Under the pieces are notes generated by a model, which was not told where the DNA came from, searched no databases, and worked only from the letters and a program-made list of their open reading frames with translations. A program made the position numbers and the translations under genes. A DNA stretch of 64,000 bases from Thermomicrobium sp. 4228-Ro (lineage in GTDB: Bacteria; Chloroflexota; Chloroflexia; Thermomicrobiales; Thermomicrobiaceae), in contig NZ_JAPFQM010000001.1 in the NCBI RefSeq assembly GCF_026241205.1, positions 1,054,001 through 1,118,000 on the forward strand. Direction: 5' to 3'. Below, piece by piece: positions 44,374 through 61,338 of this stretch (the stretch's first letter is position 1; the number at the start of each line of letters is the position of its first letter).

Positions 44374-46638
44374 TCACGCCGGCGCGACGGCATCCCCGAT
44401 CCGCGAGGACGCTGCACTGGGACGGAAGGCAAGAAGCCGCAAGCCGTTGAGGACGACGACGATCGTGCTGCCCTCGTGACCGACCACCGCGAGCGGCAGC
44501 GGCACGCCGCGTACGAGAATACTGGTGACGAGAATCACGATCACAGCGAGAGCGATCGCCAGGTTCTGCACGATGATGCGCCGGGCAGCGCGCGACAGCT
44601 CGATCGAGTAGGGCAACTTGGTCAGATCGTCGCTCATCAGGACGACATCGGCCGTCTCCAGCGCCACGTCCGTTCCTGCCGCGCCCATCGCGACCCCCAC
44701 ATCGGCAGCCGCGAGCGCCGGCGCATCGTTGACGCCGTCACCCACCATCGCGACCCGGAAGCCCGCCGCCTGCAACTCGCGGACGACCGCGACTTTCTCT
44801 TCTGGCAAGAGATCGGCTCGCCACTCGTCCAGACCGACTTCCCGGGCGATGGCTCGCGCAGCACGCTCGTTGTCGCCAGTCAGCATGACGATCCGGCGGA
44901 CGCCGAGCGCGCGCAGGCGCTCGACCACCTCCCGCGCGACTGGTCGGACGGTATCCGCGATACCGAGCACTCCCAGAACGCGCCCGTCGACCGCGGCATA
45001 GATCGCCGTCCGGGCACGCTCGCGGAGTGCCTGGGCGACCTGTTGGAGATCCGCGGGGACGGCGACTCCATGATCGTGCAGTAGTGCCTCGTTCCCGATG
45101 AGGACGTCCAGACCGTCGAGTTCAGCCCGGACTCCTCGCCCCGGAATGGAGGTTAACGAGGTCACGCGATCGATCAGCGTGCGGTCGAACGCGTGCGCTG
45201 CTTCCGCGTGCGCAACGACCGCCAGCCCGAGAGGGTGTTCCGACCGATACTCGACCGGTGCGACGATGCGCAGCAATTCGATCGGGTCGACACCCGGTGT
45301 CGGTATCACATCGGTCACCCGCGGCTTGCCGACCGTCAGTGTCCCGGTCTTGTCGAAGACCACGGCATCGACCACACCGATCGTCTCGAGTTGCAACGCT
45401 CCCTTGAACAGCACGCCGCTCCGGGCCGCATTGGCGAGCGCCGAGAGGATCGAGGCCGGCGTCGAGATGACGAGTGCGCAGGGAGAGGCAGCGACGAGGA
45501 GCGTCATCGCCCGGTAGAAACTCGTCGCAGGGTCAGCGCCCAACGCGACCGGCAACCCGAACGCGAGCAGCGAAACCACGATCACACCTATCGCGTATTT
45601 CCCCTGGAACGCTTCGGCGAACCGCTGAGCGTGCGACTTCTGTTCTCGCGCTTCTTCGACGATCCGAATGATGCGCGCCAGGGTGCTCTCATCGACCGGC
45701 CGATCGACGCGGATTCGGAGCAGGCCGGTCGTATTGAGTGTCCCGCTGAAGACCTGATCCCCCGGTCGCTTGTGCACCGGCAGCGACTCACCGGTGATCG
45801 CCGACTGGTCGACACTGGAATCTCCCGCGACGACCGTGCCGTCGATCGGGATACGTTCGCCTGGCCGAACGATGACTTCGTCACCGGGCACGAGTTCCTC
45901 GACCGGGAGGACGACTTCGTTATCGTCGCGGATGGCGAGTGCGGTATCCGGTCGCAGCGCGATCAGCGAACGGATGGCCCGATGCGTCCGGCCGAGCGCG
46001 TAGTGTTCGAGCGCGTTCCCGAGAGAGAAGAGAAATAGCAGGATGCCGCCTTCCGGCCAGGCACCCAGGACAGCGGCACCGGCTGCTGCCAGGATCATCA
46101 GGAGATCGATATCGACGGTCTTTTGGAGAAGCGCTACGACTGCGCGGTAGCTGGCGTACGCTCCGCCGGCGAGGTACGAAGCCAGATAGAGGGCGAGCGG
46201 GAGCCAACCACCGAATCCAGCCCGCTCGGTAGACCAGGCCGAGAGCAGGAAGACACCGGTCGCAGCAGTCGTGAGGAGGAGTCCGTGCTGCTGCCACCAG
46301 AGGACCCGTTCCTCGCGGCTCCATCCTTCGGGTCGTCGAACGGGGACGACGAGCGTGCGCAGCTGCTCACCGCCAGCTAGACCGTTCCCGACGACGAGCG
46401 GGTCACTCGTGCTGGAACAGCGTGGACAGCTTCCGCCATGTCCAGCGCAATGATCGGCGAGACGTGCTGCGACGGCACGGGCGCGAGCATGAACCCGGTC
46501 TGCAGCGGCATCGTGCCGGTAGCGCACGACCAGCTGGTGCTGGTCAGGGTAGTAGGTCACTCCGACGATTTCGCCCTCGCTGGTGAGCTCCTCCAGGAGC
46601 GTTTCGCATTCGCTGCGTGTCGTCGCGGACAGTACCAT
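44374..46638 (-). CDS. P1B-type heavy-metal-transporting ATPase
   Basis: A 754-residue metal efflux pump. The N-terminus holds a short domain with a His/Cys-rich segment ([16 protein letters not shown]) instead of a classic CxxC metal-binding domain. Then come membrane spans, TGES, the ion-binding [10 protein letters not shown], the phosphorylation site [13 protein letters not shown] in [28 protein letters not shown], and HEGST in the last span, a pattern of Zn/Cd/Pb pumps. A Fur/Zur-like palindrome lies 24 bases upstream of the ATG. Confidence 0.9.
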
Positions 46639-46767: not shown

Positions 46768-47285
46768 TCAGTGGCGCAGCCCTTCGCTGTGCTTCACGGT
46801 CAGGATCTCGATCGTCATGTCATAGAGCACGATGCGGTCGAGGTACGGGTAGCCAGGTTCGAACAGCGAGGGATCGCTGTACGTCTCCAGCAGCCGGTCG
46901 AAGAACCACGTCTTCGTCTCGTCGTCCTCGACGATGCGCACGCGCCCGAAGGCGACGACACTGGTGTAGACGAGTGCCGAGTTACAGGCGTACGGTTTCC
47001 CAGGATGGAGCGGCCCTATTTCGGCAGCCTCGATGCAGACTCGGGGATCGCGGCGAATATTGGAAAGAAAATGTCCTTCCTGCGCGCCGGTGTGGAAGTA
47101 CAACGTCTCGCCACCTGGGTAAAAGAACACAAGGGGAACGACAGAGGGCCAGCCGTCCGAACCGGTCGTCGCAACGTGGATGACCTGTTGCTGTTGCAGC
47201 CATCGACGCCCCCGGCATCAGGCATCGAGCGCTTGACACGTCGCACACGGCCCCGGTAGTCAGCCGCACGCTGAGGCTCTTGCAT
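46768..47285 (-). pseudogene. PPOX-type flavin-dependent oxidoreductase, frameshifted
   Basis: A pyridoxamine-phosphate-oxidase-like gene broken by one frame change. From ATG 47285 (after GGAGGG) the first frame reads MQEPQRAADYRGRVRRVKRSM. The conserved body, VIHVATTG...GWPSVVPLVFFYPGGETLYFHTG, continues in another frame to the stop at 46768. The switch is at a C5 run (47209-47213; G5 on the coding strand): one added G restores a single frame of about 172 residues. It could be a sequencing error or a recent mutation. Confidence 0.7.
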
Positions 47286-47804
47286 CGCTCGTCCCTCCGT
47301 TCCCTCGAGCTCGTCCGGTGGCGACGTCGGACGAGTAGAGATCGTAGGATACCGACATACCATATCGACTGGCTCTTCCTCGCTCGCACACGGTGACACG
47401 CTGGCATAGAGCGGAGCGCGCGACAGCGCTGGTGTGGATGATGGCTCCGCTTGCTGTGGATAACCGGCTCGCTCATCCACATCCATTGCGTCTCGCTGTG
47501 GGTATCGACATCTCCTGGCGCGGACAGGCAGTGGACGGAGGCTCGCGCAGTGCCAAACGGGCGTGCTGCTTACCCACAGGACGTCGGTTCCGACCAGGCA
47601 GTATCCACAGGAACGCTCCACGACGTTGGGCCCCGTGATCGCGGTTTCGTCACTCTCCCCACGATCCACGCCCCCGACTACGGTGACGGATTCTCCCCAG
47701 CGCGTTATGGACATGGACTCTCCACCACGTGTGGGACGTGCGAGAATCGGGAGTGTGAACGTGAGGGAGAGCAGGGAACCACCAGGAAGAAGGGACACAG
47801 GCAG
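47286..47804. other. Gene-free region with DnaA-box cluster, possible replication origin
   Basis: 519 bases with no convincing gene. Between 47433 and 47609 lie six sequences matching the DnaA box TTATCCACA: perfect on the minus strand at 47455-47463; one mismatch at 47433-47441 (minus), 47473-47481, 47570-47578 and 47601-47609 (plus); two mismatches at 47497-47505 (minus). I saw no obvious AT-rich unwinding element. dnaA is not in the window, so this is an origin candidate, not proof. Confidence 0.55.
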
Positions 47805-48941
47805 ATGCAGAGTGCTGAAGTCGTGATCGTTGGCCTCGGGATCATGGGCACGGCCGCTGCTGCAGCATTGGCCCGGCGGGGTCATCGTGTCCTAGGGCTT
47901 GAACAGTATCCACCGTTCCATACGCGTGGATCCTCGCACGGGAAGACGCGAATTATCCGGGAGGCCTATTTCGAATCACCGGAGTATGTCCCACTCGTGC
48001 AGCGAGCGTATGCGCTCTGGGAAGCGCTCGCCGAGCGAACCGGGCGCACGCTCTTGCGGGTGACCGGCGGCATCAGCGTGGGACGCCCGGAGAGTCCGTT
48101 CATCACCGGGGCACGCGAGAGCGCGCTCCGCCACGGACTCGCCCACGAGCTCCTGGATGCTGCGGAGGCGAGGAAGCGGTTCCCGGCTCTCCAGGTGCCC
48201 GACGACTTTGTTGCCCTGTATGAGGGCAGGGCTGGGATCCTGTTCGCCGAGGAATGCTGGCGGGCGTTCATCGAGGACGCGGTGGCGCACGGTGCCCGAC
48301 TGCACTTCGGGGTACGAGTGACCGGTTTCGCGCCGGAGGGGAGCGGCGTCGCGATCGAGACGAGCGAGGGGACAGTACGAGCCGATCGTCTCGTCGTCGC
48401 CGCGGGACCGTGGGCGCCGGAGGTGCTGGCCTCGCTGGGGTTGCCCTTGACGGTGCGGCGTGTTCTCGTCGTGCACGTCGAGCCGCGGCGACGCGAGCTG
48501 TTCGAGTTGGGACAGCTGCCCATCTTCTTGCTCGACGTACCGGAGGGCGAGTACTATGGCTTCCCGTGGCTCCCGGAACAAGGGGTCAAGTTCGGTCGGC
48601 ACGACGATGGCGAAGCGTGCACGGCGGAGACGGCACGTCGGACGATCACCGAGGCAGAGACCGCACACATGCTCGCGGTGCTGGGGCGATATCTGCCGGA
48701 GGCCGCTGGGGCACTCCTGATGCCGGTCACTTGCCTCTATACGATGACACCCGACGCGCATTTCGTCGTCGATCGGCATCCGGAGTGGCCACACGTTGCC
48801 TTCGCCGGCGGCTTTTCTGGTCACGGATTCAAGTTCGCACCGGTGATCGGCGAGGCGCTGGCGGATCTGGCGATCGATGGGCGTTCCGAACTGCCGATCG
48901 GTTTCCTCGGGGCAGCCCGGTTCGGGACACGGCATCAGTAA
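47805..48941 (+). CDS. Monomeric sarcosine oxidase-like FAD oxidoreductase
   Basis: A 378-residue flavoprotein of the DAO family, like monomeric sarcosine oxidase and N-methyl-tryptophan oxidase. It has [29 protein letters not shown] (FAD), [56 protein letters not shown] and [23 protein letters not shown] with its flavin-contact Gly residues. MSOX attaches FAD through a Cys; TCLYTMTPD contains the candidate Cys. ATG 47805 starts the recognisable N-terminus; the ribosome site (GAAGAAGG) is weak. The 3' end overlaps the convergent queuosine gene by seven bases. Confidence 0.82.
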
Positions 48942-49918
48942 AAGCGTGTCCGGGTACGGTGGTACGGCGGTGCATCGGGCGGCAACGACTGGCCGAGTTG
49001 CCAGAGAGCCCAGTCGACTTGCCAGGCAGCTGCAACCTGGCCCTGCGCGTGCAGGCGAGCGACGAGTTCGTCGACGGCGCAGACGGTCGCGGCTCGGATC
49101 TCGACTTCCTCGGGGGAACCAGCCGGGATCTCCTCGCGTGCATCGATGCGGCGTGCCAGGGGTTCCGCGTATCGGAGCGCACCGTAGAAGCGGAGCACTT
49201 GGGGAAGCTTGTAGTCAGCGAACGCGGTGAGCGCATCGAGGTCGTGGAAGGAGCCGAGGTCGCGACCCTGGAAGGCGCCGGCGAGGTCGGTGCAGAGCAG
49301 TTGCGCACGCTTGGAGAACGGCACGACGAGACCAGCGTAGGAAGCGAAATCGCGGAAGGAGGGGAAGAGCTCACTGACCAGACGCACTAACGCGGCGGCG
49401 CTCCCGGCTGCACTGCGCACGAGATGCGCAAACTGGCCGTCGCAAGCTGTGAGAAGACCCTGTGCGACTTCCCGGACATGCTCGATACGCCAGCTGAGCA
49501 AAGGGATCGTTCCCTCGCCAGCGAACAGGTCGGCGATCTGGTCGTCGGTGAGCTGAGCGAGGTACCTGGCATCGTAGAGCGGTTGACCGCGTTCCAGTGC
49601 GCGTCGCAGGGCAGCTGCGAGGGCCCAGTAGCCGTCGTAGAGCTGGTCCCGATAGCGGATGCGCCAGCGCGGTTCTCCCCAGAAGCAGAAGTTCAGCGCA
49701 TCGAGGAGGAGCACATAGTTCGCAGTCTGTTCCGGCGTCCCGCGCCAGTGGAGTGGGTGATCCCAGTCCGGGAGGTCGGGGAGCGGGGTGGGAAGAAGAG
49801 TGAGTATACGCTCGATCCCGCCTGGATCGAGCTGCACCCAGCGAGCGCGTTCGAGGACGATGCGCGTCGCAGCGCGGATGCCGAGAGGGTCGGGTAGGGT
49901 TCGGTATGCAGACAGCAT
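48935..49918 (-). CDS. Queuosine salvage protein (DUF2419, Qng1-like)
   Basis: A 327-residue protein of the DUF2419/queuosine 5'-phosphate N-glycosylase family, which frees queuine from queuosine nucleotides. Signatures are [53 protein letters not shown] and [25 protein letters not shown]. It suggests the cell scavenges queuine or queuosine instead of making it; no queuosine biosynthesis gene is nearby. The ribosome site before ATG 49918 is weak. It overlaps the end of the convergent sarcosine oxidase-like gene. Confidence 0.8.
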
Positions 49919-51729: not shown

Positions 51730-51753
51730 TGTTCGTTGCCGGAGGGTAGGAGC

Positions 51754-52203
51754 GTGGAGCGATCGTTGATCATCGTGAAGCCGGATGCAGTGCAGCGGGG
51801 CCTGATCGGGGAGATCTTGCGACGGTTGGAGCAACGGGGTCTCCGATTCATCGGGCTGAAGCTGATGTGGATCGACCGGGAGCTTGCGGAACGACACTAT
51901 GCGGAGCATCGCGGGAAGGCGTTTTTCGAGGAGTTATTGTCGTTCATCACCTCGGGGCCAGTGGTCGTGGGGGTGGTGGAAGGGCCGCGCGCGATCGAGG
52001 TGACGCGCAAGACGATGGGGAAGACGGATCCGGCGGAGGCTGAGCCGGGGACGATCCGGGGGGATCTGGCGCTGTCGATCGCGCAGAATGTGATTCACGG
52101 CTCGGACAGCCCGGAAAAGGCAGCGTACGAGATCAGCCTGTTCTTCCGCGAGGACGAGCTGGTGAGCTACGAGCGAGCGATCGACCGGTGGATCATGGGC
52201 TGA
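51754..52203 (+). CDS. ndk: Nucleoside diphosphate kinase
   Basis: Transfers the gamma phosphate from ATP to nucleoside diphosphates; 149 residues, a normal length. It has [70 protein letters not shown] with active-site His in [11 protein letters not shown] 51754 is preceded by GGAGGGTAGGAGC. Codons here are unusually G-ending (CTG, TTG, GGG) compared with most plus-strand genes of the window. It ends five bases before a parS site. Confidence 0.95.
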
Positions 52204-52208
52204 GCGGT

Positions 52209-52226
52209 GTGTTTCACGTGAAACAC
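52209..52226. promoter_or_regulatory. parS centromere-like site (ParB/Spo0J binding)
   Basis: Contains TGTTTCACGTGAAACA (52210-52225), the 16-base bacterial parS consensus, extended to an 18-base perfect palindrome. ParB nucleates here to organise chromosome segregation, and such sites normally cluster near oriC. It lies immediately after ndk and overlaps its terminator. No parA or parB is in the window. Confidence 0.88.
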
Positions 52227-52254
52227 GGGGGCACCAGTGCGGTGCCCCCGTGTT
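52222..52254. terminator. Bidirectional terminator overlapping parS
   Basis: Fourteen-base perfect stem AACACGGGGGCACC/GGTGCCCCCGTGTT with a 5-base loop, between convergent ndk and the 52263 gene. The first bases of the stem are the last bases of parS. Confidence 0.75.
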
Positions 52255-59601: not shown

Positions 59602-61338
59602 ATGGACTCGACCCGCGAGATCACGCTGCAGTCCGGGTCATTGTACCGGAAGTACCGGCCGCAGACGTTCGACGAGCTGGTCGGTCAGGAAGCGATCGCT
59701 CGGACCCTCCGCAATGCGGTCGCCCTCGGCCGGGTGGCTCATGCCTACCTCTTCTGTGGGCCGCGCGGTACCGGGAAGACGAGCACGGCGCGTCTACTCG
59801 CGAAAGCGGTGAATTGCCTCGCTCCCGATCCCTGGCAACGTCCGTGCAACCAGTGCGCGGCCTGTCGGGCGGTCGCGAGCGGTGCTGCGGTCGACATCGT
59901 GGAGATCGACGCAGCCTCCAACCGCGGAGTCGATGATATTCGCGACCTCCGCGAGAAGGTCAAGTACGCACCGGTCGAACTGCGCACCAAGTTCTACATC
60001 ATCGACGAAGCGCATCAGCTCACCCGCGATGCGTTCAATGCGTTCCTGAAGACACTGGAAGAGCCGCCGCCGCACGTCGTCTTCGTGCTGGCGACGACCG
60101 AGCCGGACAAGCTTCCCGAGACTGTCGTCTCGCGCTGCCAGCGCTTCGACTTTCGGCGTCTCCCGATCGATCGCGTGGTCGAGCGCCTCCGCTTCGTCTG
60201 TGCACGCGAGGGTATCGCTGCCGACGATGCAGTCCTCACGCTGGTCGCGCGGCGTGCGACCGGGAGCCTCCGCGACGCGCTCGCCTTGCTCGAACGCCTC
60301 GTCGTCTTCGCTGGTGAGCAAGCGGCCAACGCTCCGATAACCCTTGAACTGGCGCTCGACGTTCTGGGTGGTAGCCAGCAAGAGCGGCTCGTCGACGTGG
60401 TGAGCGCGATCGCCGACCGCGACGCTGGGCGAGCGCTCCGGGTCATCGCGGCTGTCGCTGATGCCGGTGACGACCTGCAGCAGTTCGGCCGGGATCTGGT
60501 CTCCTTCGTCCGCAGTCTCCTCCATATCCGGGCTGGCGGTGTCGATCCGCTCCTTCCGGAGGAGAGCGCGCAGCTGGCCCATCGCTTCTCGTTGTCCGAA
60601 CTCGCTACGGTACTCCGCAAACTCACCGGTTTCGAGGTGCCGGTACCACGTTCGGGAGTCGATCCGCAATTGCTTCTCGAGTTGACCGTCGTGGAATCGA
60701 TCCTGGCCCTCGACCAGGTACACGTCCAGGCACCAGCCCCGCTCACCAACCAACCAGGCTCTCTGCTCCGGCCAGCACCTGCAGCCCCGGCACAGGCGAA
60801 GCCAGCTGCACCACGCGGAGACGGCCGAGCGCCCGACGCATTCCCGCCGTCTCCCAGCGGGCCATCGGGCAACCAGCCTCCGGCCGCGGCGAATGAGGAT
60901 GCACTGCTCGAACAGCTCGTTCTCCGCTGGGCAGCGATCCGCCGCGAGTTGCGGAGCGCCAACAGTAAGGCGGCCGCACTCCTGGCCGATGCCGAGCCGC
61001 GCCTCGTCCGCGGTGAAGAGGTGATCCTCGTGGCGCCGTACGAGTTCCACCGCCGGCGGATCAACGAGGAGAACGAGTTGCGCCGGGTCATCGAGCGGGT
61101 TCTCGCACGTCACCTCGGTCGCCCGTGCCGCGTTGTCTGTGTCGCGCCGGAAGAGGTCGCGGCACTGCGCAAGCCGGGCACGAGCGAGGATACCAGCGAC
61201 CGCGGTGCCGAGGGGACCGAGACTGCTGAGACGCGTAGCGATGAGGACGACCCGTCGGCACTCCGATCGCTGAGTCCAGACGACCGCCGCCGTCTCGAGG
61301 CCGCCAAAGCGATCTTCGATGCCGTCGAGCTACCGTGA
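59602..61338 (+). CDS. dnaX: DNA polymerase III subunits gamma/tau
   Basis: Clamp-loader ATPase, 578 residues. SLYRKYRPQTFDELVGQEAIARTL, Walker A GPRGTGKTST, a four-Cys zinc module (CLAPDPWQRPCNQCAAC), IDEAHQLTRDAFNAFLKTLEEPP (Walker B/DExx-like) and sensor LATTEPDKLPETVVSRCQRF are all present. A Pro/Ala-rich linker precedes a tau-like C-terminal domain (EDALLEQLVLRWAAIRRELR). I see no slippery A-run to make a short gamma form. GAGAGG precedes ATG 59602. Confidence 0.93.
   Translation: MDSTREITLQSGSLYRKYRPQTFDELVGQEAIARTLRNAVALGRVAHAYLFCGPRGTGKTSTARLLAKAVNCLAPDPWQRPCNQCAACRAVASGAAVDIVEIDAASNRGVDDIRDLREKVKYAPVELRTKFYIIDEAHQLTRDAFNAFLKTLEEPPPHVVFVLATTEPDKLPETVVSRCQRFDFRRLPIDRVVERLRFVCAREGIAADDAVLTLVARRATGSLRDALALLERLVVFAGEQAANAPITLELALDVLGGSQQERLVDVVSAIADRDAGRALRVIAAVADAGDDLQQFGRDLVSFVRSLLHIRAGGVDPLLPEESAQLAHRFSLSELATVLRKLTGFEVPVPRSGVDPQLLLELTVVESILALDQVHVQAPAPLTNQPGSLLRPAPAAPAQAKPAAPRGDGRAPDAFPPSPSGPSGNQPPAAANEDALLEQLVLRWAAIRRELRSANSKAAALLADAEPRLVRGEEVILVAPYEFHRRRINEENELRRVIERVLARHLGRPCRVVCVAPEEVAALRKPGTSEDTSDRGAEGTETAETRSDEDDPSALRSLSPDDRRRLEAAKAIFDAVELP

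Follow-up and report, generated by a model that had tools for sequence, protein, structure and literature searches.

The window analysed here is a stretch of 64,000 bases (C1:1054001-1118000) from Thermomicrobium sp. 4228-Ro, a heat-loving bacterium of hot springs, whose genome of 3,068,448 bases in 13 contigs includes a 2,046,163-base contig reported as a circular chromosome (C1) and a 907,128-base megaplasmid (C6) (PMC10019275). Within this window, a gene-free interval lies between a pyridoxamine 5'-phosphate oxidase (PNPOx)-like gene on the minus strand to its left and an FAD oxidase gene on the plus strand to its right (Table 1). Rightward, the oxidase is followed by genes for a queuosine salvage protein and a TPR protein (at about 50-51.7 kb, of strongly skewed composition), then by ndk and a parS site. 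The same order of neighbours is found in the congeneric genome G006, and G009, from outside the genus, keeps it for the oxidase, queuosine salvage gene, ndk and parS. The left edge of the interval depends on the first codons of the PNPOx-like gene. These codons in turn hinge on what looks like the gain or loss of one base within a C tract (47195-47285) relative to G005 and G001, either a true frameshift or an artefact of sequencing. A search with Rfam gave no match anywhere in the window.

Table 1. Features of the putative replication origin and its surroundings, in window positions.
Feature	Position	Strand	Remarks
PNPOx-like gene, left flank	46768..47285	-	PF12900 7.8e-17 on 46768-47193; start inferred; frame interrupted near start
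Intergenic region, putative oriC	47286..47804 (C1:1101286-1101804)	.	519 bases, gene-free; best skew change point; conserved in genus
Least stable 40 bp of region in 4228-Ro, alternative melting site	47333..47372	.	Duplex-stability scan; not conserved in more distant genus members
DnaA box B1, TCATCCACA	47433..47441	-	One mismatch; position kept in 6/6 genus loci
DnaA box B2, TTATCCACA	47455..47463	-	Perfect; 22 bases from B1 in 6/6 genus loci
DnaA box B3, TCATCCACA	47473..47481	+	One mismatch; 18 or 19 bases from B2 in 6/6 genus loci
Weak DnaA box B5, ATACCCACA	47497..47505	-	Two mismatches; 7/9 positions invariant in 6 genus genomes
DnaA box B6, TTACCCACA	47570..47578	+	One mismatch; site with at most two mismatches at same place in 5/6 genus loci
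DnaA box B4, GTATCCACA	47601..47609	+	One mismatch; 128 bases from B3 in 6/6 genus loci
Two weak tandem box-like sequences, TCTCCCCAC and CGATCCACG	47654..47670	+	Candidate box part of unwinding module
Conserved triplet-like element, CGACTACGGTGACGG	47675..47689	+	13/15 positions invariant in 6 genus genomes; candidate single-strand/unwinding element
FAD-dependent oxidoreductase (DAO family) gene	47805..48941	+	PF01266 9.5e-61; adjoins array in 6 genus loci, G009 and Thermalbibacter
Queuosine salvage protein gene	48935..49918	-	PF10343 3e-83; syntenic in G006 and G009
ndk, nucleoside diphosphate kinase	51736..52203	+	PF00334 1.2e-54; adjoins parS in G006 and G009
parS, TGTTTCACGTGAAACA	52210..52225	.	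Perfect; sole perfect parS in genome
dnaX (DNA polymerase III tau/gamma), domain match	60340..60588 (C1:1114340-1114588)	+	PF12169 4.2e-9

The intergenic region contains six DnaA-box-like sites within 177 bases (47433-47609), one of them perfect, four with one mismatch and a sixth with two. A first-pass annotation of this DNA had described such a cluster in a 519-base gene-free region and judged it too dense for chance, and our analysis confirms each of these statements. Seven sites with at most one mismatch occur in the window, two of them outside the array, against a mean of 2.62 after shuffling, and genome-wide there are 128 such sites compared with 100 for a reversed control pattern. The places of the first 100 genome-wide sites cover all of C1 and run into C6; elsewhere on C1 there are never more than three sites per 177 bases, so that the density of the array is unique on this contig. 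The only point in favor of a chance cluster is the shortness of the motif; 12 Mb of sequence simulated from a first-order Markov model of the window reached a maximum of 2 sites per 177 bases.

The idea of a chance cluster is refuted by the conservation of the array, and we assign it a vanishingly small probability. Genus loci from G000, G001, G002, G004, G005 and G006 were compared. A DNA search with the intergenic region matched 5 of 61 genomes, all within the genus and including 4228-Ro itself; it did not match the seventh genus member, G003, whose genome is 54% complete. The spacings listed in Table 1 are kept in every one of the six loci. In G001, all boxes carry two mismatches, yet their spacing is the same. 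In a six-genome alignment, 39 of 54 box positions are invariant (72%) compared with 21% of the other intergenic positions, and when the box mask was shifted circularly, none of the 474 placements reached 39 invariant positions. Beyond the genus, the first two boxes are 21 bases apart in all five aligned family loci (G007, G009, G012, G013 and G014), and a pattern of the B1-B2-B3 geometry gives a single match in each of 6 genomes, out of 158 in the class, always at the array locus and with zero control matches. The arrangement of the boxes is conserved in relatives, G008, G016 and G010 aside: no cluster within one mismatch was found near parS in G008 and G016, and parS itself was not found in G010.

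The position of the array can be compared with the strand asymmetry of the chromosome, for which we sampled 40 segments of 20 kb on C1 in addition to the window, together 42% of the chromosome. Between 200 kb and 1.10 Mb, GC skew is negative in all but one of the 21 stretches, the exception starting at 950 kb (+0.0425); from 1.10 Mb onward, past the end of C1 at 2.05 Mb and up to 170 kb, all 23 are positive. A two-change-point fit places the origin at 1.100 Mb and the terminus at 0.172 Mb; the boxes lie at 1.1014 Mb, coinciding with the leading-strand switch at this level of sampling. A skew minimum far from the cluster had been named in advance as the result that would speak against an origin, and the fit instead falls beside the boxes. 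When candidate loci are imposed as fixed origins, the loss is 0.0 log units for the boxes, 5.7 for dnaX, 71.1 for an mraZ-associated cluster, 92.7 for dnaA and 102.9 for parB, values that serve as orderings and not as probabilities because skew bins are autocorrelated. A block bootstrap of the fit on a 20-kb grid spans 0.88-1.12 Mb, with an interquartile range of 1.10-1.12 Mb and a lower 2.5% limit of 0.88 Mb, and the range of the fitted origin is 1.084-1.132 Mb. Within the window, the local skew minimum is at 45904, and the 8-kb bin starting at 1106001 has negative skew. Because the skewed TPR gene dominates the local signal and this negative bin lies to its right, the fine position of the switch is unreliable.

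Further evidence comes from parS, which is 4.6 kb from the boxes; proximity of this kind is common at DnaA-box origins but not defining. Every other parS-like sequence in the genome has at least three mismatches, and among the 16 genomes searched, 13 have a parS site with no more than one mismatch. The neighbourhood from the intergenic region to parS is largely kept in relatives. Together, parS proximity and conserved box geometry add independent support for the origin reading. The chromosomal ParB is encoded 868 kb off, at C1:1969889, and the megaplasmid has its own ParB (C6:332715-333239, L218). We also observed that parS directly follows ndk and stands beside a GC-rich inverted repeat that, by its sequence, resembles an ndk terminator (52210-52250).

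Boxes alone cannot separate an origin from a site that titrates DnaA or controls initiation in the manner of datA, an alternative that the first-pass annotation had raised. The true origin would then lie elsewhere nearby, for example at dnaX, which is 13 kb from the array and inside the fitted skew range. However, we found no other box cluster between 1.084 and 1.132 Mb or near dnaX, dnaX is the poorer fit to the skew, and the array, the genes to its right and parS stay together across the genus and in G009. A datA-type site is expected as a box cluster away from the skew switch, and this cluster is at the switch. Titration is not needed to account for the array and is disfavored; a titration site alone is unlikely, and we see only a slim chance that the origin proper is a neighbour of this cluster.

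In many bacteria, dnaA sits right beside the origin. A location within a few kilobases is common, though not defining, and 4228-Ro departs from it: its dnaA match is at C1:1834031, 732 kb from the array, which bears out the earlier suggestion of an origin separated from dnaA. The encoded protein has the C-terminal sequence GGRDHTTVLHG, the usual DnaA signature for box binding. We rejected an origin at dnaA itself, where no box with at most one mismatch lies just upstream, skew is positive on both sides and the loss in the skew fit is among the largest. The distance between dnaA and the array varies among relatives, from 6-7 kb in G009 to 710 kb in G006, and is at least about 244 kb in G002, where the two are on different contigs. 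In G007, a record of 2,741,033 bases, dnaA is at position 440, the boxes are near 2593926 and parS is at 2599351, placing dnaA about 147 kb from the array; the skew fit gives 2.576 Mb, with losses of 1.8 log units for the boxes and 6.5 for dnaA, and thus weakly favors the boxes over dnaA as the origin. In the outgroup G022, dnaA and parS are less than 4 kb apart, and a box cluster of its own was not found. Close linkage in both G009 and G022 hints that linkage may have come first. In a tree of 15 DnaA proteins, the deep forks are open and the G022 branch is very long, so the tree gives no direction for the change.

The array also lies upstream of the FAD oxidase gene in the genus, in G009 and in Thermalbibacter, as would be expected of an operator through which DnaA or another regulator controls that gene. 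Evidence from the oxidase itself is against this: the 1300 bases upstream are free of boxes in 68 of 69 relatives outside the family and contain a single box in the other (full length available for 64 of 69), and five more distant loci (L137-L141) lack a cluster. Since the oxidase relatives outside the family are without boxes, the array marks the place and not the enzyme. Conversely, the Sphaerobacter-like genome G007 has the box pair and parS but no match to the oxidase in the surrounding 20-kb stretch. An operator would furthermore leave the skew switch unexplained, and we regard this account as very improbable.

Taken with its setting in an intergenic region, the box cluster is very probably the single bidirectional chromosomal oriC of Thermomicrobium sp. 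4228-Ro, as far as sequence comparison can indicate. What had been proposed as a possible oriC is supported by the skew fit, the nearby parS and the conserved box geometry. It is an ordinary DnaA-box oriC, confidently placed, with an uncommon gene context and a well-conserved family-specific layout, and its description refines to box level the identification of an element whose kind is already known. In Thermomicrobium roseum DSM 5159, base 1 was set in an intergenic region near dnaX by skew alone (Wu et al. 2009, PMC2615216), and dnaN, dnaA, gyrA, gyrB, gidA and others were described as dispersed and hence unusable as origin markers (PMC2615216). The two organisms share their genus and a skew-defined origin near dnaX; they differ in that the passages on the origin in the T. 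roseum paper name no boxes or parS (PMC2615216), whereas in 4228-Ro the boxes lie 13 kb from dnaX. The origins of 4228-Ro and T. roseum, the latter standing outside the set of genomes compared, probably occupy the same place. Among the papers listed by our literature searches, we recognised none that describes the Thermomicrobium box array, and DoriC may already list the region for T. roseum.

That oriC is not always beside dnaA is established (PMC4285127, PMC10225481). As in E. coli and many other bacteria, the 4228-Ro origin would be an intergenic box cluster without the rnpA-rpmH-dnaA-dnaN-recF-gyr gene cluster (PMC4285127). It differs from E. coli-type contexts, as far as these are outlined in that source, in its remote dnaA on a 2.05-Mb chromosome and in a box geometry particular to the family. 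Cyanobacterial origins are likewise often not marked by dnaA and have few boxes, but they are described as usually adjoining dnaN and using TTTTCCACA (PMC4674748).

Candidate melting elements lie on either side of the box array (Table 1). A duplex-stability scan of 11 genomes gave no consistent melting site that includes 4228-Ro and no clearly AT-rich conserved element; 8 of the 11 have one of their three weakest stretches starting at +242 to +270 relative to B1, the others being 4228-Ro, G006 and G004. To the right of the array, two weak tandem box-like sequences precede a triplet-like element (Table 1). Sequences similar to the former (ttCCCCAc..tCCAC) are found in the genus and in G009, G007 and G012. 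The core motif of the latter, CGACTACGRTGACG, occurs at the putative origin in all six genus loci, at 47675-47689 here and at the same place in L055, L056, L057, L058 and L090, and within the genus it is better conserved than each of the six boxes. This succession of weak tandem boxes and a conserved triplet-like stretch recalls the basal unwinding system of DnaA-boxes and DnaA-trios, from which 4228-Ro differs in having the triplets GAC-TAC-GRT-GAC instead of the 3'-GAT-5' consensus (PMC6669920, PMC8287927). Measured against a requirement of at least three 3'-NAN-5' triplets no more than 16 bp from a box, the match to the trio consensus, read by eye, is partial.

In a possible mechanism, DnaA made from its gene 732 kb away would reach the array, where B1 and B2, about two helical turns apart, the opposed B3 and the rightward B6 and B4 would nucleate an ATP-DnaA oligomer. 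From there, the oligomer may grow to the right over the weak tandem boxes and onto the CGACTACGGTGACG element, at which the strands would open and the helicase would be loaded. ParB, made far off, would bind parS and hold the new origin copies for segregation. It is a tentative and rather doubtful idea that strand opening at the GC-rich origin of this family takes place at a divergent, GC-rich element of triplets (GAC-TAC-GRT-GAC by weak tandem boxes) in place of an AT-rich stretch, and that dnaA moved (to distances of 6-7, about 147 and 732 kb) relative to an origin block that kept its place. If true, relatives could be compared for how the position of the initiator gene affects initiation.

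Our findings would locate an origin, down to its boxes, in a heat-loving and deep-branching bacterial group where dnaA, the customary marker, is misleading. In G007, for example, the record starts at dnaA, though its boxes and parS are about 142-147 kb away, and the neighbourhood set by skew alone in T. roseum would shift by about 13 kb if gene order is shared. The family also offers a compact example of an origin block (oriC, oxidase, ndk and parS) that is intact while dnaA and parB are elsewhere. Because dnaA is replicated later in the cycle when it is distant from oriC, the group could serve to examine whether the common linkage of the two has a bearing on timing.

The only other C1 cluster of three or more sites, at 1530438-1530488 (L003:1459-1509), has three sites upstream of an mraZ-like gene and consists of a run of TGTGG/GTGGGG direct repeats ahead of what we take, from the encoded proteins, to be an mraZ-rsmH pair. 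These may be MraZ operator repeats; an origin there was rejected, the locus being a direct-repeat run with no skew switch and no parS. A second DnaA-family AAA+ match (C1:310446-311066, L007:1402-2022) lies in an open frame of about 319 amino acids with a counterpart matched in all 16 genomes, and its translated part looks, by eye, like a helicase loader of the DnaC/DnaI type.
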